Source: Herbidospora sakaeratensis (GTDB lineage: Bacteria; Actinomycetota; Actinomycetes; Streptosporangiales; Streptosporangiaceae). From it: a stretch of DNA of 64,000 nt. The translations under genes were made by a program, and so were the position numbers. The number at the start of each line of letters is the position of its first letter. Within the stretch, counting starts at the first letter, position 1. The stretch covers positions 124,001-188,000 of the forward strand of contig NZ_BBXC01000015.1 in the NCBI RefSeq assembly GCF_001570525.1. Direction: 5' to 3'. Below the pieces are notes generated by a model that was not told the origin of the DNA, did not search any database, and worked only from the letters and a program-made list of their open reading frames with translations. Shown here piece by piece: positions 57,958 to 64,000 of the stretch.

Positions 57958-59637
57958 ATGGCAGCGGATCGTGCGTCGATGGCCCAGCTCGTCCGGGATC
58001 TCGTCACCCCGCTGCACCCCTTCTTCAGCCCCGGCCGGGCCCGCCTGAGACTGGGCGTGAACACCGCCCACTACGACGACGCCGCCGCCGAACTGGAGGC
58101 CTTCGCCCGCCCCCTGTGGGGCCTGGCGCCGCTGGGTGAGGGCCTGGACCTGTGGCGCGCGGGCCTGGCGGCCGGCACCGACCCCGCCCACCCCGAATAC
58201 TGGGGCGACATCGCCGACGTCGACCAGCGCCTCGTCGAGACCGCCGCGCTCGGCTTCGCCCTGGCCCTCGCCCCCGAGCAGTTATGGGACGGTCTGAGCG
58301 GAATCGAGCGCGATCGCGTGGCGACGTGGCTCTCCCAGGCCCTCGCCCGTCCGGGCGTCGACAACAACTGGCAGTTCTTCCCCGTCCTGGTCGCCCTCGG
58401 CCTGCGCCGCGTCGGCGTGACGGTCGACGAGCAGCCTCTGCAGGCCCGGCTCGACCGGCTGGAGTCCTTCGCCCTGGGCCGAGGCTGGTACTCGGACGGC
58501 CCGACCGCCCAGCGCGACTACTACGTGCCGTTCGCGATGCACTACTACGGCCTGATCTACGCCGGTCTGAGCGACGACGCCCGAGCCGAGCGCTTCCGCA
58601 CCCGCGCGGGCGAATTCGCCCTCGACTTCCGCCACTGGTTCGCCGCCGACGGCGCGGCCGTCCCCTTCGGCCGCTCGCTGACCTACCGGCACGCGCAGGC
58701 CGCGTTCTGGGGCGCCCTGGCGTTCGCCGGGGTCGACGCCCTGCCATGGGGCGAGACGAAGGGCTACCTGCTGCGGCACCTGCGCTGGTGGCAGGACCGT
58801 GACGTGGCCGACCGGGCCGGGGTCCTGACGATCGGCTACGCCTACCCGCAACCGCTGCTCGCGGAGCAGTACAACGCCCCCGGCTCGCCCTACTGGGCCA
58901 TGAAGGCGTTCCTCCCCCTGGCCCTGCCGGAAGAGCACCCCTTCTGGACCACCCCGGAAACCCCCGCGGCGCTGCCCGACGGGGTCGTCCACCAGCCCGA
59001 AGCCGGCACGGCCGTGATCCGGTCGGACGAAGGCCGCCACGTCGTCCTGCTGAGCACCGCGCAGCACAACATGTGGGCCCGAGGCGGTGCGGCCAAATAC
59101 GCCAAGTTCGCCTACTCGACCGTCTTCGGCTTCAGCGTCCCGGCCGGAAGCCACGGCCTGGACCAGGGCGCCCACGACAACACCCTGGCGCTGAGCGACG
59201 ACGGCCGGCACTGGCGCTGCTGCGAGGTCCCCGAAGGGCTCGGCGACCTCCACCTGCGCTGGTCGCCGTGGGACGACGTCGAGATCGAGACGTGGCTGAT
59301 CCCCCGCGAGCCCGACCACCTGCGCGTCCACCGCATCGTGTCGGCCCGCCGCCTGTTCACGGCGGAGGCGTCCTTCGCGGTGAACCGCGACACCGAGACG
59401 GGCCGCGACACCGGCGACGGCTACGCGTGGGCGGCCTCCGACCAGGGCCTGTCCCGCATCGAAGACGTGACCGACGCCGACTGGCCGACGGGGGTCCGGC
59501 GGGAGGGGGAGGTCGTGCAGCCGCACCCCGGGACCAACGTCCTGGTGCCGCGCACGATCCTCCCCACCCTGCGGGGCGAGCATGAGGCGGGCGAGTTCTG
59601 GCTGGTCAGCCGGATCACCGGCACGCCCGCTCGATGA
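57958..59637 (+). CDS. DUF2264 domain-containing protein
   Basis: A 559-residue protein of the DUF2264 family: an alpha-helical barrel-like N-terminal part (MAQLVRDLVTPLHPFFSPG, GVDNNWQFFPVLVALGLRR, DGPTAQRDYYVPFAMHYYGLIY) and a beta-rich C-terminal part (from about 340). The aromatic residues and the conserved W-Q-F-F, D-Y and H-Y-Y blocks fit a glycoside-processing enzyme; I do not claim a specific reaction. It is divergent from the aldehyde dehydrogenase and has AGGAG before the ATG. Confidence 0.9.
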   Translation: MAADRASMAQLVRDLVTPLHPFFSPGRARLRLGVNTAHYDDAAAELEAFARPLWGLAPLGEGLDLWRAGLAAGTDPAHPEYWGDIADVDQRLVETAALGFALALAPEQLWDGLSGIERDRVATWLSQALARPGVDNNWQFFPVLVALGLRRVGVTVDEQPLQARLDRLESFALGRGWYSDGPTAQRDYYVPFAMHYYGLIYAGLSDDARAERFRTRAGEFALDFRHWFAADGAAVPFGRSLTYRHAQAAFWGALAFAGVDALPWGETKGYLLRHLRWWQDRDVADRAGVLTIGYAYPQPLLAEQYNAPGSPYWAMKAFLPLALPEEHPFWTTPETPAALPDGVVHQPEAGTAVIRSDEGRHVVLLSTAQHNMWARGGAAKYAKFAYSTVFGFSVPAGSHGLDQGAHDNTLALSDDGRHWRCCEVPEGLGDLHLRWSPWDDVEIETWLIPREPDHLRVHRIVSARRLFTAEASFAVNRDTETGRDTGDGYAWAASDQGLSRIEDVTDADWPTGVRREGEVVQPHPGTNVLVPRTILPTLRGEHEAGEFWLVSRITGTPAR

Positions 59638-62600
59638 CCTCCTCGGTGGTCAGGGGGGCGCGGGGGTGGTGGCTGAGACAGAGGGGGGTGCGCACCTTCG
59701 CGAACCCCGCCCCTTCGGGCGCGACGTAGAACTGACCCGTGATCAGGGAGCTGATGTCGTTCGCGCTGCCCCCCTTGGCCCGGGCCATCTCCTTGGCCGC
59801 GTCGATCTGCACCTGAGCGTTGAGCAGCCCGAAGAACTGGGTCGCGGCGTTGCCCGGGATCTGGTTGTGCAGCCCCTTCGGCGCCTGCGTCGCGAAGACC
59901 AGCCCCAGCCCGTACTTCCTGGCCTGAGAGGCCAGGGCGAGCGTGCTCTTGGTGCAGACGGTCGTCGCGCCGGACGGGGCGAAGTTCTGCGCCTCGTCCA
60001 TGACGAAGAGCCCGCCGAGCGGCCGGTCGCCCGCGGGGTTCTTCTTGATCCACGCGAACAGCCCCATCTGGAGCTGGTTGACGAAGCTCTGCCGCTCGGC
60101 GTTGCTCTGCAGTCCCACGAACGAGATGACCGACACCCGCGCCCGCTTCCCGGCGGCCGGGGTGAGCAGCACCCCGGGGTCGACCGGCTCCCCCTCCCCG
60201 CCGAACAGCGGATCGTTGACCTTCGCCGCGTGCAGCACCTGCGAAAGCCCATGGGCGATCTTCACCGAGTCGCCGATCTGGCTGATGTCCTCGGGGAAGT
60301 CCTCAAGCAGGTGGATCAGCCCGTCGAGCCCGCCGCGCTGGTGTCGCCCGAAGTGGACGACGGCCGCCTTCAGCACCGCCCGGGCCATCTCGGCCTTGCC
60401 GGTGTTCCCTTCGAGCTTGGCCCGGGGCACCAGCGCGGCCACGGCGGCGTCGACGGCCTCGTTGAACTCGTCGACGTCGTCCCGCACGCCGGCGAAGTCG
60501 GGCAACGGCTGGAACGCCAGCGGGCGGCCCTTCTCCCGGCGCGGCGTCCACACCACGACGTCGGTGTCGGCGATGTAGCGCGCGGCGCGGGCGGCGTCCC
60601 CCGGGCCCCAGGCGGAGGGCTCGTCAGGCCATGGGTCGCCCAGCCGGGCGAGGTCGTTGTTGGTGTCGAGCACGATCGAGGAGACGCCGTTGAGTGCGCA
60701 CTCCTCGACGATGCGCCTGATGAGGACCGTCTTGCCGGAGCCGGAGCCGGCGAAGATCGCGACATGCTTCCGCAGCGCTTCCAGCTCGACCGAGACCGGG
60801 AGCCCACGCTCGTAGGAGCGGCCGACGACCAAGGTGGGGGCCTTGGCGGGCAGGACCACGGCGTCGGGAACGTCGGCCACCGGAGCGTGGCCCGACTCAC
60901 CGGCCTTCCGGGTGGGCAACGGCTGATCCTTGACGGGCGGATCGTCGAGGATGTCTCCCTCAGGCACTTTTGGGACCTGCACCTCCTCCGGAGCGGGCGC
61001 CTGCGGCTCGTCCGACCAGTCGTCCAGAATGTCCCTGAGCAGCTTGATCGCGCCGGCCGGCCGCTTGAGAACCAGCCACTTGTTGAGGCTCGGCGGATTC
61101 TGCGCCATCAGGTCGCGCAGAGCACTGAGGGTCTTCAGGTCGGCCTCGTCGACGGTGACGACCCGCCCGCCACGCGCGCGGAAGTCGGCCAGGGCCTGCT
61201 GGGTCTTGGGTCCGGCGGCCCACGGAACGTTCCTCAGGACGACGAGCCTGCGCTTGGGCGTCTCGGCTTCGAGGCCCGCCGCGATGGCCGCCCTCCTGAG
61301 CCGGGTCAGCGCCGCGTTCGGATGCCTGGCGCTGATGCCGCGGATCGCCCAGTGGACCTCGTCCTCCCTGGCCTCGTCGAGGACCTGGCGGAGGCGTGCG
61401 TGCAGGGAGGTCTTCTGGCCGAAGGTCGGGTCGACCTTGTAGGTCGTCGTGTCGTCGCCCTTCTCGATCGCCCACGCCTGCAAACCGGCGGCCAGCAGGC
61501 CGGGGAGGACGGCGTCCTCCTGCGTCGCGTCCAGCGCGCCGGTGACGTGGGCGGCGTCTTCGAGCAGGGCGAACTTCGTCTCGATGCCGTGGACTTCACT
61601 GAGCGTGTTCTGGATCGCGGCGACCGGTTCGACCTGGTAGACCTCCACTCCGTTGAAGCGGAACAGTTCCCTGACCTCGCTGCGGGCGACACAGGCCGCA
61701 ATATGATCGGTGAGGGCCCGGAGGATCTTTCGCGGCGTATATGCCTGTGCCTCGGAGAAGGCCTCCGGCCGGACCGGCCACGTGGGGTAGGGCGGCTCGA
61801 AGCCGATGCTCTTGAAGTGCTCTGCCAGCCGCTTGATCACCAGTTCCCGGCCCACTTCGGGAGAGGGCACCCGCTTGAGGACCGTGGTCTCCTCGAACCG
61901 GTCCTTGAAGCTGGACACCGCCAGCTTCTTGAGCAGGATCCAGGTGTCCGGCAGACAGGAAACGACCGACAGGGTCCTGCTGGTCACCTCGCGCAGTGAG
62001 GTCAGCCCGTGGGCGATCTGCAGGGCGGTGGCCCGGGTCTTCGGGTCGACCTCGCCGCTCCCGAACAGCGTCATCGAGCTGATGAGCGGGTCGAGCTGGT
62101 CGAAGGCCATCACGCTGGGCCCGGTCATCGCGAGCAGCCGCGAGATGTCCCGGACCAGCTCCTGCGGAGTCCGGATGATCGGCCGGAATTCCCATTCACG
62201 CCGACCGCCGTCGAAGTCCTCCATGCCGTACATGTAACCGTCGCCCAGGCTGGCCAGGTTGTAATCGTTGGAGGCCAGCAGGACCAACGCGCGGGCCGTG
62301 TCCTGGGCTTCCATGAACACCCGAGGGTCCTGCTTGTACAGCCCCTGCATGAACTCCTTGAGATGCTCCTTCTCCAGCGGCTGGTTGCCGATGACCGCCT
62401 GCTGGGTCCGGCGGGGCAGTGACATCGGCTCGGTCAGGTTGCGGAGGAAGCGCTTGAGCTGGCTCTCCTCGTCGGCTCCGATCCTGCCGAGACCGTCCTG
62501 GATGGACACCAGGGCGCTCTCCCAGAAGTTGCGCGCGTCGAGCACGCTCATGAGGAAGAAGTAGCCGTCACGCCGGATGACCTGCTCGCGCAGCCAGCTC

Positions 62601-62824
62601 ATCAGGTGCGTCTTGCCGCTGCCCGCCGTCCCTTCGAGGACGACGCCGATCGGACTGGAGGTGCCCCCGCTGCGCGCGGCCGCCTCCAACCCCGTGGTCA
62701 GTGCCTGCGACGCCTGGGGGTGCAACCCGTCGACGTGGAAGGGCACCGGACGCCAGACGTCCTCCCCTCCATTAACGGTCGAGATGACGTTAAGGGAGCT
62801 GATCGCGTACCAGTCTGTGATCAT
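59615..62824 (-). CDS. Double-NTPase protein: AAA-type plus HerA-like domain
   Basis: A 1069-residue protein with two nucleotide-binding modules. The N-terminal AAA-type domain has Walker A GTAGSGKT (65-72) and a Walker B-like VMAFDQLDPL (about 238-247). A middle region (about 525-600) carries VVTVDEADLKTLSALRDL. The C-terminal HerA/DUF87-type domain has Walker A GSGSGKT (693-699), Walker B LFVMDEAQNF (939-948), sensor FATQ (977-980) and QARKYGLGL. HerA-type motors pump or process DNA and recur in defence systems. The ATG overlaps the winged-helix gene stop (TGATG). The whole protein matches no system I know by name. Confidence 0.85.
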   Translation of the reverse strand: MITDWYAISSLNVISTVNGGEDVWRPVPFHVDGLHPQASQALTTGLEAAARSGGTSSPIGVVLEGTAGSGKTHLMSWLREQVIRRDGYFFLMSVLDARNFWESALVSIQDGLGRIGADEESQLKRFLRNLTEPMSLPRRTQQAVIGNQPLEKEHLKEFMQGLYKQDPRVFMEAQDTARALVLLASNDYNLASLGDGYMYGMEDFDGGRREWEFRPIIRTPQELVRDISRLLAMTGPSVMAFDQLDPLISSMTLFGSGEVDPKTRATALQIAHGLTSLREVTSRTLSVVSCLPDTWILLKKLAVSSFKDRFEETTVLKRVPSPEVGRELVIKRLAEHFKSIGFEPPYPTWPVRPEAFSEAQAYTPRKILRALTDHIAACVARSEVRELFRFNGVEVYQVEPVAAIQNTLSEVHGIETKFALLEDAAHVTGALDATQEDAVLPGLLAAGLQAWAIEKGDDTTTYKVDPTFGQKTSLHARLRQVLDEAREDEVHWAIRGISARHPNAALTRLRRAAIAAGLEAETPKRRLVVLRNVPWAAGPKTQQALADFRARGGRVVTVDEADLKTLSALRDLMAQNPPSLNKWLVLKRPAGAIKLLRDILDDWSDEPQAPAPEEVQVPKVPEGDILDDPPVKDQPLPTRKAGESGHAPVADVPDAVVLPAKAPTLVVGRSYERGLPVSVELEALRKHVAIFAGSGSGKTVLIRRIVEECALNGVSSIVLDTNNDLARLGDPWPDEPSAWGPGDAARAARYIADTDVVVWTPRREKGRPLAFQPLPDFAGVRDDVDEFNEAVDAAVAALVPRAKLEGNTGKAEMARAVLKAAVVHFGRHQRGGLDGLIHLLEDFPEDISQIGDSVKIAHGLSQVLHAAKVNDPLFGGEGEPVDPGVLLTPAAGKRARVSVISFVGLQSNAERQSFVNQLQMGLFAWIKKNPAGDRPLGGLFVMDEAQNFAPSGATTVCTKSTLALASQARKYGLGLVFATQAPKGLHNQIPGNAATQFFGLLNAQVQIDAAKEMARAKGGSANDISSLITGQFYVAPEGAGFAKVRTPLCLSHHPRAPLTTEEVIERACR

Positions 62825-63459
62825 CAGCGGGCCCCGATCCGCAGCTGATGGTTGGGCTCGTCGCCGATCACGACGGCGGCGGCGTGGTCCTCGGGCGACA
62901 GGTGACCGACGATCGCCGCGGCGAGAATGTGCACCTCGGGGGCGTTGAACAACATCCGGCGCAGGGCCTCGTCCTGTTCGGCCCGGTCAATGTCGTCGAG
63001 CAACGGTCGCAACCTCGTCAGCGAGACCCACTCCCCCACTCCCGGGGTGATCTTCGAATAGGCCTCGCGGATGCGGTCCTCGACCTCGTCGTCGGGAAGA
63101 GCGACGGGCGCGGCCACCGGTTCGGGCGCGACCTCCACGGCGGCCGGGGTCGCCGGCCAGACAAGGGAGCGCAGGTAGAGCAGCGCAAGAGTCTTGCCCG
63201 ACCGCGAGGTCACCGCGACGCCCTTCCGCACCTCTTCCAGCGCCCTCTCTTCACCGGCGGGCGTGATCGAGTACCAGATGGTCCTGCGCTCCCGCTTCTC
63301 CGACTCGATCAGCTTGGCGTCCACCAACCCGGCCCGGTTCTTGGCGTCGAGGTCCAGGCCCCAGTTGTCGCGCAAATCCTTGTGGCCCACGTCGGTCCCC
63401 AGTTCCTTGAGGACAAGGAGGGCCGCAACCTGCCGGTAAGTGAGTCTTTCTTCGGACAT
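62824..63459 (-). CDS. Winged-helix protein of the HerA/nuclease operon
   Basis: A 211-residue protein. The N-terminal part (LTYRQVAALLVLKELGTDVGHKDL, then KLIESEKRERRTIWYSITPAGEERALEEV) looks like a PadR/MarR-style winged helix. The C-terminal half (from about 120) is acidic and helical (DDEVEDRIREAYSKI, LRPLLDDIDRAEQDEALRRML). It could be a regulator or a structural adaptor between nuclease and ATPase. Stop-start overlaps on both sides (TGATG) show it is made together with them. Confidence 0.75.
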   Translation of the reverse strand: MSEERLTYRQVAALLVLKELGTDVGHKDLRDNWGLDLDAKNRAGLVDAKLIESEKRERRTIWYSITPAGEERALEEVRKGVAVTSRSGKTLALLYLRSLVWPATPAAVEVAPEPVAAPVALPDDEVEDRIREAYSKITPGVGEWVSLTRLRPLLDDIDRAEQDEALRRMLFNAPEVHILAAAIVGHLSPEDHAAAVVIGDEPNHQLRIGAR

Positions 63460-64000
63460 CAGACTGCTCCTTCGCTCAGCCCGAGGCGACGCCCCAGGAG
63501 GAAATCCCTGATCCGGCGGAGCACCGCCGGCAGATCGTCGAGCACCTGCTCGTTGGTGAAGCGCAACACGGTGAAACCGTCACGTTCCAAATGCCGGTCC
63601 CGAAGTCGGTCCATCTCGGCCTTGGCCGCCGTCAGGTGCTCGGGTCCGTCGAGTTCCACGACGCACTTCTCGTGCGCCCACATCAGGTCGGTCCGGATCG
63701 ACACGAACAGCGGGTCGTTCGACGGGTAGGTCTGGTTCCACTCGCGCCCGTGCGCCCAGGGGCAGTCGAGCAGCGCCTGCTCCACGGCCTGCTCGACCTC
63801 GCTGTAGCGGGCGGGCTCGCCGCGGAGCGGCGGCACCCGCAGCACCTCGGCGCGCGTCACGGGCGCCGGCAGCTGCGCGGCCAGCCGGGCCACCGGCTCC
63901 GGCACCTTCAGATGCACGGTTTCAACCCGTCTCACCTCGGGACCGACCAGCCAGACGCCCATCCCGCTCTGGTGGGCCAGCCATTCGCAGCCGGCCACGA
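63459..64000 (-). CDS. DUF559/Vsr-like nuclease domain protein (partial)
   Basis: The 3' part of a gene that continues past the window. The C-terminal 110 residues fit the DUF559 group of PD-(D/E)xK nucleases: an Asp in RTDLMW, the ExD-like VVELDGPEHL, the helix KAEMDRLRDRHLERDGFTVL and the final RFTNEQVLDDLPAVLRRIRDFL. Preceding sequence (EVRRVETVHLKVPEPVARLAAQL) is unassigned. The nearest in-frame GTG (63998) is likely internal. The stop overlaps the winged-helix start by one base. Nuclease activity is inferred from the residue pattern. Confidence 0.8.
   Translation of the reverse strand, partial: VAGCEWLAHQSGMGVWLVGPEVRRVETVHLKVPEPVARLAAQLPAPVTRAEVLRVPPLRGEPARYSEVEQAVEQALLDCPWAHGREWNQTYPSNDPLFVSIRTDLMWAHEKCVVELDGPEHLTAAKAEMDRLRDRHLERDGFTVLRFTNEQVLDDLPAVLRRIRDFLLGRRLGLSEGAV

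Follow-up and report, generated by a model that had tools for sequence, protein, structure and literature searches.

A three-gene locus, here called A-B-C, lies at the far end of the 64,000-nucleotide stretch of Herbidospora sakaeratensis DNA that was analyzed (NCBI RefSeq assembly GCF_001570525.1, contig NZ_BBXC01000015.1, positions 124,001 to 188,000; hereafter the window) and, judged from sequence comparison, probably encodes a conflict system, most likely anti-phage or anti-plasmid, that moves between genera and combines a conserved B-C core with an exchangeable effector. In the window, gene A encodes the effector, a DUF559 nuclease; gene B encodes a winged helix-turn-helix (wHTH)-like protein; and gene C encodes a double ATPase with an Orc/Cdc6-like AAA+ module and a HerA motor. 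Direct observations comprise the gene architecture, the conserved motifs, the exchange of partners, the patchy occurrence, and one replacement of the trio in place. The conflict-system reading is favored because Kaur et al. (2020; PMC7159879) outline, as a pattern of conflict systems, effectors that are exchanged around a conserved sensor-like core.

Partner exchange around the B-C core

Across 112 non-redundant C rows (duplicates and loci with a called C of 850 aa or less being left out), the aligned loci present B-C as a conserved core whose partner is one of several mutually exclusive types. B was found at 111/112 row loci, the B counted for locus L126 belonging to another trio (L and G numbers are our handles for loci and genomes). 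The partner is a DUF559-type A in 80 rows, a TIR-DUF559 fusion in three (Pfam TIR in L130, L150, and L151), a DUF4365 protein with a second protein of about 366 aa in five (Pfam DUF4365 in L041 and L042), a P-loop/TPR-type protein of 571–731 aa in nine (one cut by a contig end), and a divergently transcribed trypsin-STAND-WD40 protein of 1291–1368 aa in six, these proportions being biased because 80 loci were picked for their resemblance to an alignment made up mostly of DUF559-type sequences. The P-loop and TPR labels come from a motif seen by eye and from sub-threshold matches, with one scanned member giving no match. At five of the six protease-type rows, a Trypco1-type neighbor was found by profile (Pfam Trypco1 in L111), and the four protease-type N-termini scanned matched trypsin families in three cases (one below the cut-off) and nSTAND1 in all four (two below the cut-off). 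TIR domains have NAD-depleting activity. No row has two partner types, except that the long-C row L126 lies directly beside a separate complete trio. On the C tree, at least nine partner changes are counted, with the TIR type merged, long-C rows left out, and "none" treated as a state.

Within the class sample, the 32 genomes with C comprise 14 with DUF559, three with TIR-DUF559, three with DUF4365, two with P-loop/TPR, and one with protease partners, the remainder having no recognized partner (three), a long C only (three), a fragment or truncated gene (two), or being G178 (one). The C gene looks broken in two of the 14 DUF559 genomes (G211 and G302). For the comparisons between loci, genes were called by codon usage with a caller of our own; atypical genes escaped it (for example, A and B in G033), and six-frame profile searches made up for these. 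The same loci supplied the A, B, and partner profiles, with labels assigned beforehand, which makes this check partly circular. Some partner types are represented in PADLOC 2.0: the L042 DUF4365 protein matches PDC-M02A (4e-71) and its 366-aa companion PDC-M02B (4.8e-141), each match spanning almost the whole protein; the TIR part of L130 matches PDC-S66 and TIR-containing defense models (E 2.6e-6 and weaker), and the protease-type N-terminus gives weak matches (E 0.001 and up).

Long-C variants account for five of the 112 rows. C proteins of 1131–1739 aa as called, with large inserts, are encoded at L126:8842-13185, L127:5467-10686, L128:7878-12722, L129:5117-9355, and L132:8578-11973; three scanned genes near a long C (two in L126, one in L127) encode protein kinases. 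Broken-looking C genes, with two open reading frames (ORFs) or an uncalled N-terminus, were seen in two sampled genomes (L146:3340-7012 and L142:5252-7612). The loci with B-C and no recognized partner are L118 and L122 (mycobacteria), L145, and L140, the last with a 241-aa gene on the same strand upstream of B.

Gene coupling and protein domains

The first-pass annotation had described three genes overlapping stop to start and made as one unit. The three ORFs lie at the positions given there (Table 1), all on the same strand, and the A/B and B/C junctions both read TGATG with a one-base overlap. Short B-C overlaps recur in relatives, the gap being −4 in 62 and −1 in 18 (80/91 called pairs, duplicate genomes included and start codons taken from our own gene caller), and the description as a single coupled unit was judged right; a promoter scan found none. 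The 179-aa length first listed for the third ORF (gene A) was rejected, as its frame is open past the window end and runs 547 bases further to a GTG at L003:6547 (window 64547), giving a protein of 362 aa.

Table 1. Genes and domains of the A-B-C locus, in window coordinates
Feature	Position	Strand	Remark
Gene A, window part	63459..64000	-	180 complete codons including stop; remainder beyond window
Gene B	62824..63459	-	211-aa winged-helix-like protein
Gene C	59615..62824	-	1069-aa double-ATPase protein
N-terminal domain of A, window part (residues about 5-220)	63888..64000	-	Weakly P-loop-NTPase-like fold; Walker A absent by eye
DUF559 nuclease domain of A, residues 247-355	63483..63809	-	D287, E298, D300, H304 invariant in 37/37 rows
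Orc/Cdc6/TnsC-like AAA+ module, C residues 1-396	61637..62824	-	Walker A GxGKT
Alpha/beta domain, C residues 418-606	61007..61573	-	AF2 secondary structure
HerA/DUF87 motor, C residues 664-1069	59618..60835	-	Pfam; solved HerA structures match

The domain assignments made at first sight were largely borne out. The window part of A matches Pfam DUF559 (E 2.4e-13), in keeping with a DUF559-type nuclease; Foldseek ranked ABC transporters first for A (E 3e-3 and above), and in a second look, the nuclease half (DUF559, Vsr-like) stood out, with the N-terminal half weak. B has no Pfam match of its own, and its description as a winged-helix protein was kept as wHTH-like on the basis of weak matches of 2/47 relatives to DUF6293_C, a winged-helix family (best E 4.8e-4), the match of the relative in L027 falling below the Pfam cut-off. 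Of the three proteins, B shows the lowest conservation in 6/6 Herbidospora comparisons (for G001, A 72, B 46, and C 70%). A profile of B against PDB gave only calmodulins, some of them fused, among the 60 matches listed, and these were taken as chance.

C matches Pfam DUF87 (E 8.4e-12) and AAA_22 (E 3.7e-9), in agreement with the proposed fusion of a HerA motor to an N-terminal AAA-type ATPase. The Walker B motif of the AAA+ module reads D242-Q243-x-D245 in 92/92 sequences, and in the same 92/92, the HerA half retains the Walker A GKT, DE-Q (943, 944, and 946), R969, and Q980. TrwB_AAD_bind also matches C (E 2.6e-5, just above the cut-off of Pfam), and a TCAD9 match (E 0.043) was not used; NCBIfam matches of the trio (for A, of the window part only) were far below the cut-off, with weak TraD/VirB4 among them. 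A profile of C 1-640 against PDB reached a best E of only 0.025, and fold comparison of C barely reaches past residue 396. For the middle domain, the best profile match (E 0.024) was to an unrelated chain and no consistent Pfam match was obtained; the order of elements in residues 418-606, from AlphaFold2 (AF2) secondary structure, is compatible with an inactive restriction endonuclease (REase) fold, and no wHTH was recognized in C after this domain.

Distribution and genomic place

C occurs in 18/60 near genomes, that of the window included (only split or partial in G026 and G030), and in 32/296 genomes and 13/114 genera of the class, about a tenth of the genomes. A scan of genome contigs gave at least 567 stretches that encode a relative (tblastn, E of 1e-3 or lower), some of which may be other HerA proteins; the best 80 were examined, and their records name actinobacteria. 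In the plasmid collection, three records carry A-B-C sets (Nonomuraea, Tsukamurella, and Methylobacterium). A Methylobacterium plasmid of 1.57 Mb, typed as mobilizable, bears the alphaproteobacterial copy; B was found there by iterated profile. The Nonomuraea record (L025, NZ_LT559118.1), listed as a plasmid, is 11.85 Mb and looks chromosomal in size. The Tsukamurella tyrosinosolvens record (NZ_LR134464.1, "plasmid 22") is probably chromosomal, because it carries ribosomal protein genes; together with a DEAD/DEAH helicase and VapBC, the trio lies there between rpsQ and rplN, within the ribosomal protein cluster (L026:5819-21885).

In 7/7 Herbidospora, the trio occupies one spot, with a DUF2264-like gene on one side and an SGNH-like hydrolase gene on the other or, in G001, the macro-like gene adjoining it, the names of these flanking genes being assigned by eye. 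In G033, G028, and G015, three different contigs carry these elements, one the trio, another the DUF2264-like gene, and a third the macro-like gene. Neighbors are also shared, in gene order and length, within some other genera (for example, L136-L139; L036, L063, L065, L070, and L071). Within genera the trio thus seems to be inherited, and between genera its place differs. One fixed place in all relatives was rejected, as the three other genera checked have the trio elsewhere; the housekeeping set at a fixed chromosomal place that the first-pass annotation had considered disagrees both with this change of site between genera, constant as the site is within Herbidospora, and with the presence of C in 32/296 genomes.

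The C of G001 is 70.5–75.4% identical to that of the six other Herbidospora vs. 81.9–82.9% to that of three Acrocarpospora, and it clusters with Acrocarpospora and Sphaerisporangium (FastTree support 99). Ten matched flanking genes are 88.6–97.3% identical between G001 and the window; an Acrocarpospora-like C in Herbidospora-like flanks therefore indicates that a foreign version replaced the trio in place. The GC content at third codon positions (GC3) of the trio is 85–92 in G000, the genome of the window, vs. 94–96 for five neighbors, and 71–78 in G033 vs. 91 for two neighbors. Other observations made by eye are a gene resembling a bacterial nitric oxide synthase oxygenase (L003:18009-19121) and three related genes upstream of the copy at L079 that resemble transposase pieces (L079:3488-6654).

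Mechanism, alternatives, and known relatives

In the conflict-system reading, the Orc/Cdc6-like AAA+ module of C and the wHTH-like B would load on or recognize invading DNA. The AAA+ module may bind ATP to form a stable clamp or switch, hydrolyzing it slowly, since its Walker B has Q for the usual E in every aligned sequence, and the HerA half, its motifs intact, would assemble a hexameric translocase. Assembly of the core on foreign DNA would activate the partner. In the window this is A, which may dock to the core through its N-terminal domain and would cut DNA with its DUF559 domain; the outcome would probably be that the infection aborts or the invader is destroyed. Since the exchanged partners include non-nucleases, the core should be a sensor or activator and not merely a DNA feeder. 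Complex formation, DNA sensing, the enzyme activities, and immunity are what we infer from the sequences. If this holds, a single DNA-associated sensor core would drive effectors of differing chemistry (cutting of DNA, probably cleavage of NAD, and proteolysis), what the core senses could be asked independently of the effector, and HerA as DNA feeder vs. activation platform would become testable.

Several results weigh against this reading. C matched none of 50,697 phage records, and no match was confirmed in viral contigs by pattern-limited scans, so that neither supports a phage origin. PADLOC 2.0 gave no match for full-length A, nor for the P-loop/TPR partner of L079 or the Trypco1 protein, and B-C stands without a recognized partner in 4/112 rows. 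The trio keeps a single spot in 7/7 Herbidospora, and flanks are also common in some other genera; from such shared flanks it looks inherited and stable there. The inactive REase expected from the most similar described class is unconfirmed in C. Finally, near neighbors (130 proteins, 61 PADLOC families) are not richer in PADLOC families than far ones (124 proteins, 86 families), the sets holding 130/132 near and 124/132 far proteins with six far ones already in the near set; mad3, for example, has 3 near vs. 4 far when the best 25 of 61 and of 86 families are compared, and the enrichment in defense islands proposed for checking was not seen in this comparison. Separately, one far neighbor is a Cas1-like protein.

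Of the other explanations, we consider a restriction-like capture possible yet rather unlikely, in which the core only feeds DNA to a bound nuclease and destroys conjugating or packaging DNA with no cell killing. This is the model that Rakesh, Aravind, and Krishnan (2024; PMC10853773) offer for the class described below. The HerA motifs, intact in 92/92, agree with it, but protease and P-loop/TPR partners have no obvious need for fed DNA, and the TIR fusions suggest by analogy NAD depletion and cell arrest. A DNA repair or end-resection module, working on broken chromosomal DNA like the archaeal HerA-NurA with an Orc-like AAA+ loader, appears improbable: a trypsin-STAND-WD40 or P-loop/TPR partner occurs in 15/112 rows, 42/60 near genomes have no match, and the G001 trio was swapped for a foreign version, even though a HerA motor with a DUF559 (Vsr-like) nuclease at one locus in 7/7 Herbidospora would suit such a role. 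A part in a mobile or conjugative element, with a coupling-protein-like motor serving transfer, is very improbable; the TrwB_AAD_bind and weak TraD/VirB4 matches, the copy on the mobilizable-typed plasmid, and the GC3 of the trio below that of its neighbors point that way, but the phage and viral searches gave no confirmed match and the exchangeable partners are of conflict type.

The claim that no described system has this composition went too far. Rakesh, Aravind, and Krishnan (2024; PMC10853773) describe computationally a closely similar class, the "HerA/FtsK capture" systems, which combine an Orc/CDC6 AAA+, an inactive REase, an active REase, HerA/FtsK, and wHTH components in one or several polypeptides, with the inactive REase inserted between the AAA+ core and a C-terminal wHTH, two active REase families, and, in a subset, a separate wHTH protein that evolves fast. 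The predicted Orc/Cdc6-type AAA+ and HerA/FtsK ATPase are both present in C, and the trio may further resemble the class in its middle alpha/beta domain, its nuclease, and its separate fast-evolving wHTH-like protein, as it does in its patchy occurrence; the family lies in or near the class and fits most of it. Related Orc/CDC6 copies outside HerA loci are fused to STAND or TIR domains (PMC10853773), which makes the TIR and STAND partners less surprising. Section 22 of that paper names two active REase families, and in A the nuclease is of DUF559 type and its residues are conserved. The main text contains none of the words DUF559, DUF4365, and trypsin, overlap being possible, and sections 22 and 26 do not describe exchange of whole partners on an Orc-HerA and wHTH core. 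Passages of PMC8195603 have nothing on this family. The chances are about evenly balanced that this is an undescribed, widespread actinobacterial immune family (also on an alphaproteobacterial plasmid) in which an Orc/Cdc6-HerA and wHTH core with an E-to-Q Walker B triggers interchangeable effectors, namely a DNA nuclease, a TIR-nuclease, a DUF4365 pair, a P-loop/TPR protein, or a trypsin-STAND-WD40 protease.

Comparison with PADLOC 2.0, proposed at the outset, placed only the HerA half of C: the matches of C are mainly of HerA-domain type (best mad8, E 3.4e-16, residues 675-1045), and neither A nor B has any. The trio is thus not strictly an already named system; although about a tenth of the sampled class genomes carry the family, no model matches its B-C core strongly over the full length. 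MADS is an eight-gene mad locus, and its other mad models match neither A, B, nor C. The candidate PDC-M02 corresponds to the partner pair of the DUF4365 type only (L042); the window trio differs, with no PDC-M02 match for A, B, or C, and no mention of PDC-M02 was found in a literature search. DndFGH and BREX have another gene set, and none of the three genes here is a modification gene; PADLOC gave no Dnd match for the three, and no dedicated dndF-dndG-dndH search was made.

Sir2-HerA is an anti-phage pair of an effector and a HerA motor, and DUF4297-HerA likewise joins a nuclease or other effector to such a motor; the defense-like logic first seen in a nuclease paired with HerA was judged right. 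In the trio, unlike in these pairs, one polypeptide links the HerA half to an Orc-like AAA+ and a middle domain, the nuclease is of DUF559 type, and a wHTH-like protein stands in between. The VMAP/vWA-MoxR ternary systems have a vWA-MoxR-VMAP core in place of Orc-HerA with a wHTH-like protein, but they likewise carry interchangeable effectors, including a trypsin-Trypco1 pairing (Kaur et al., 2020; PMC7159879).
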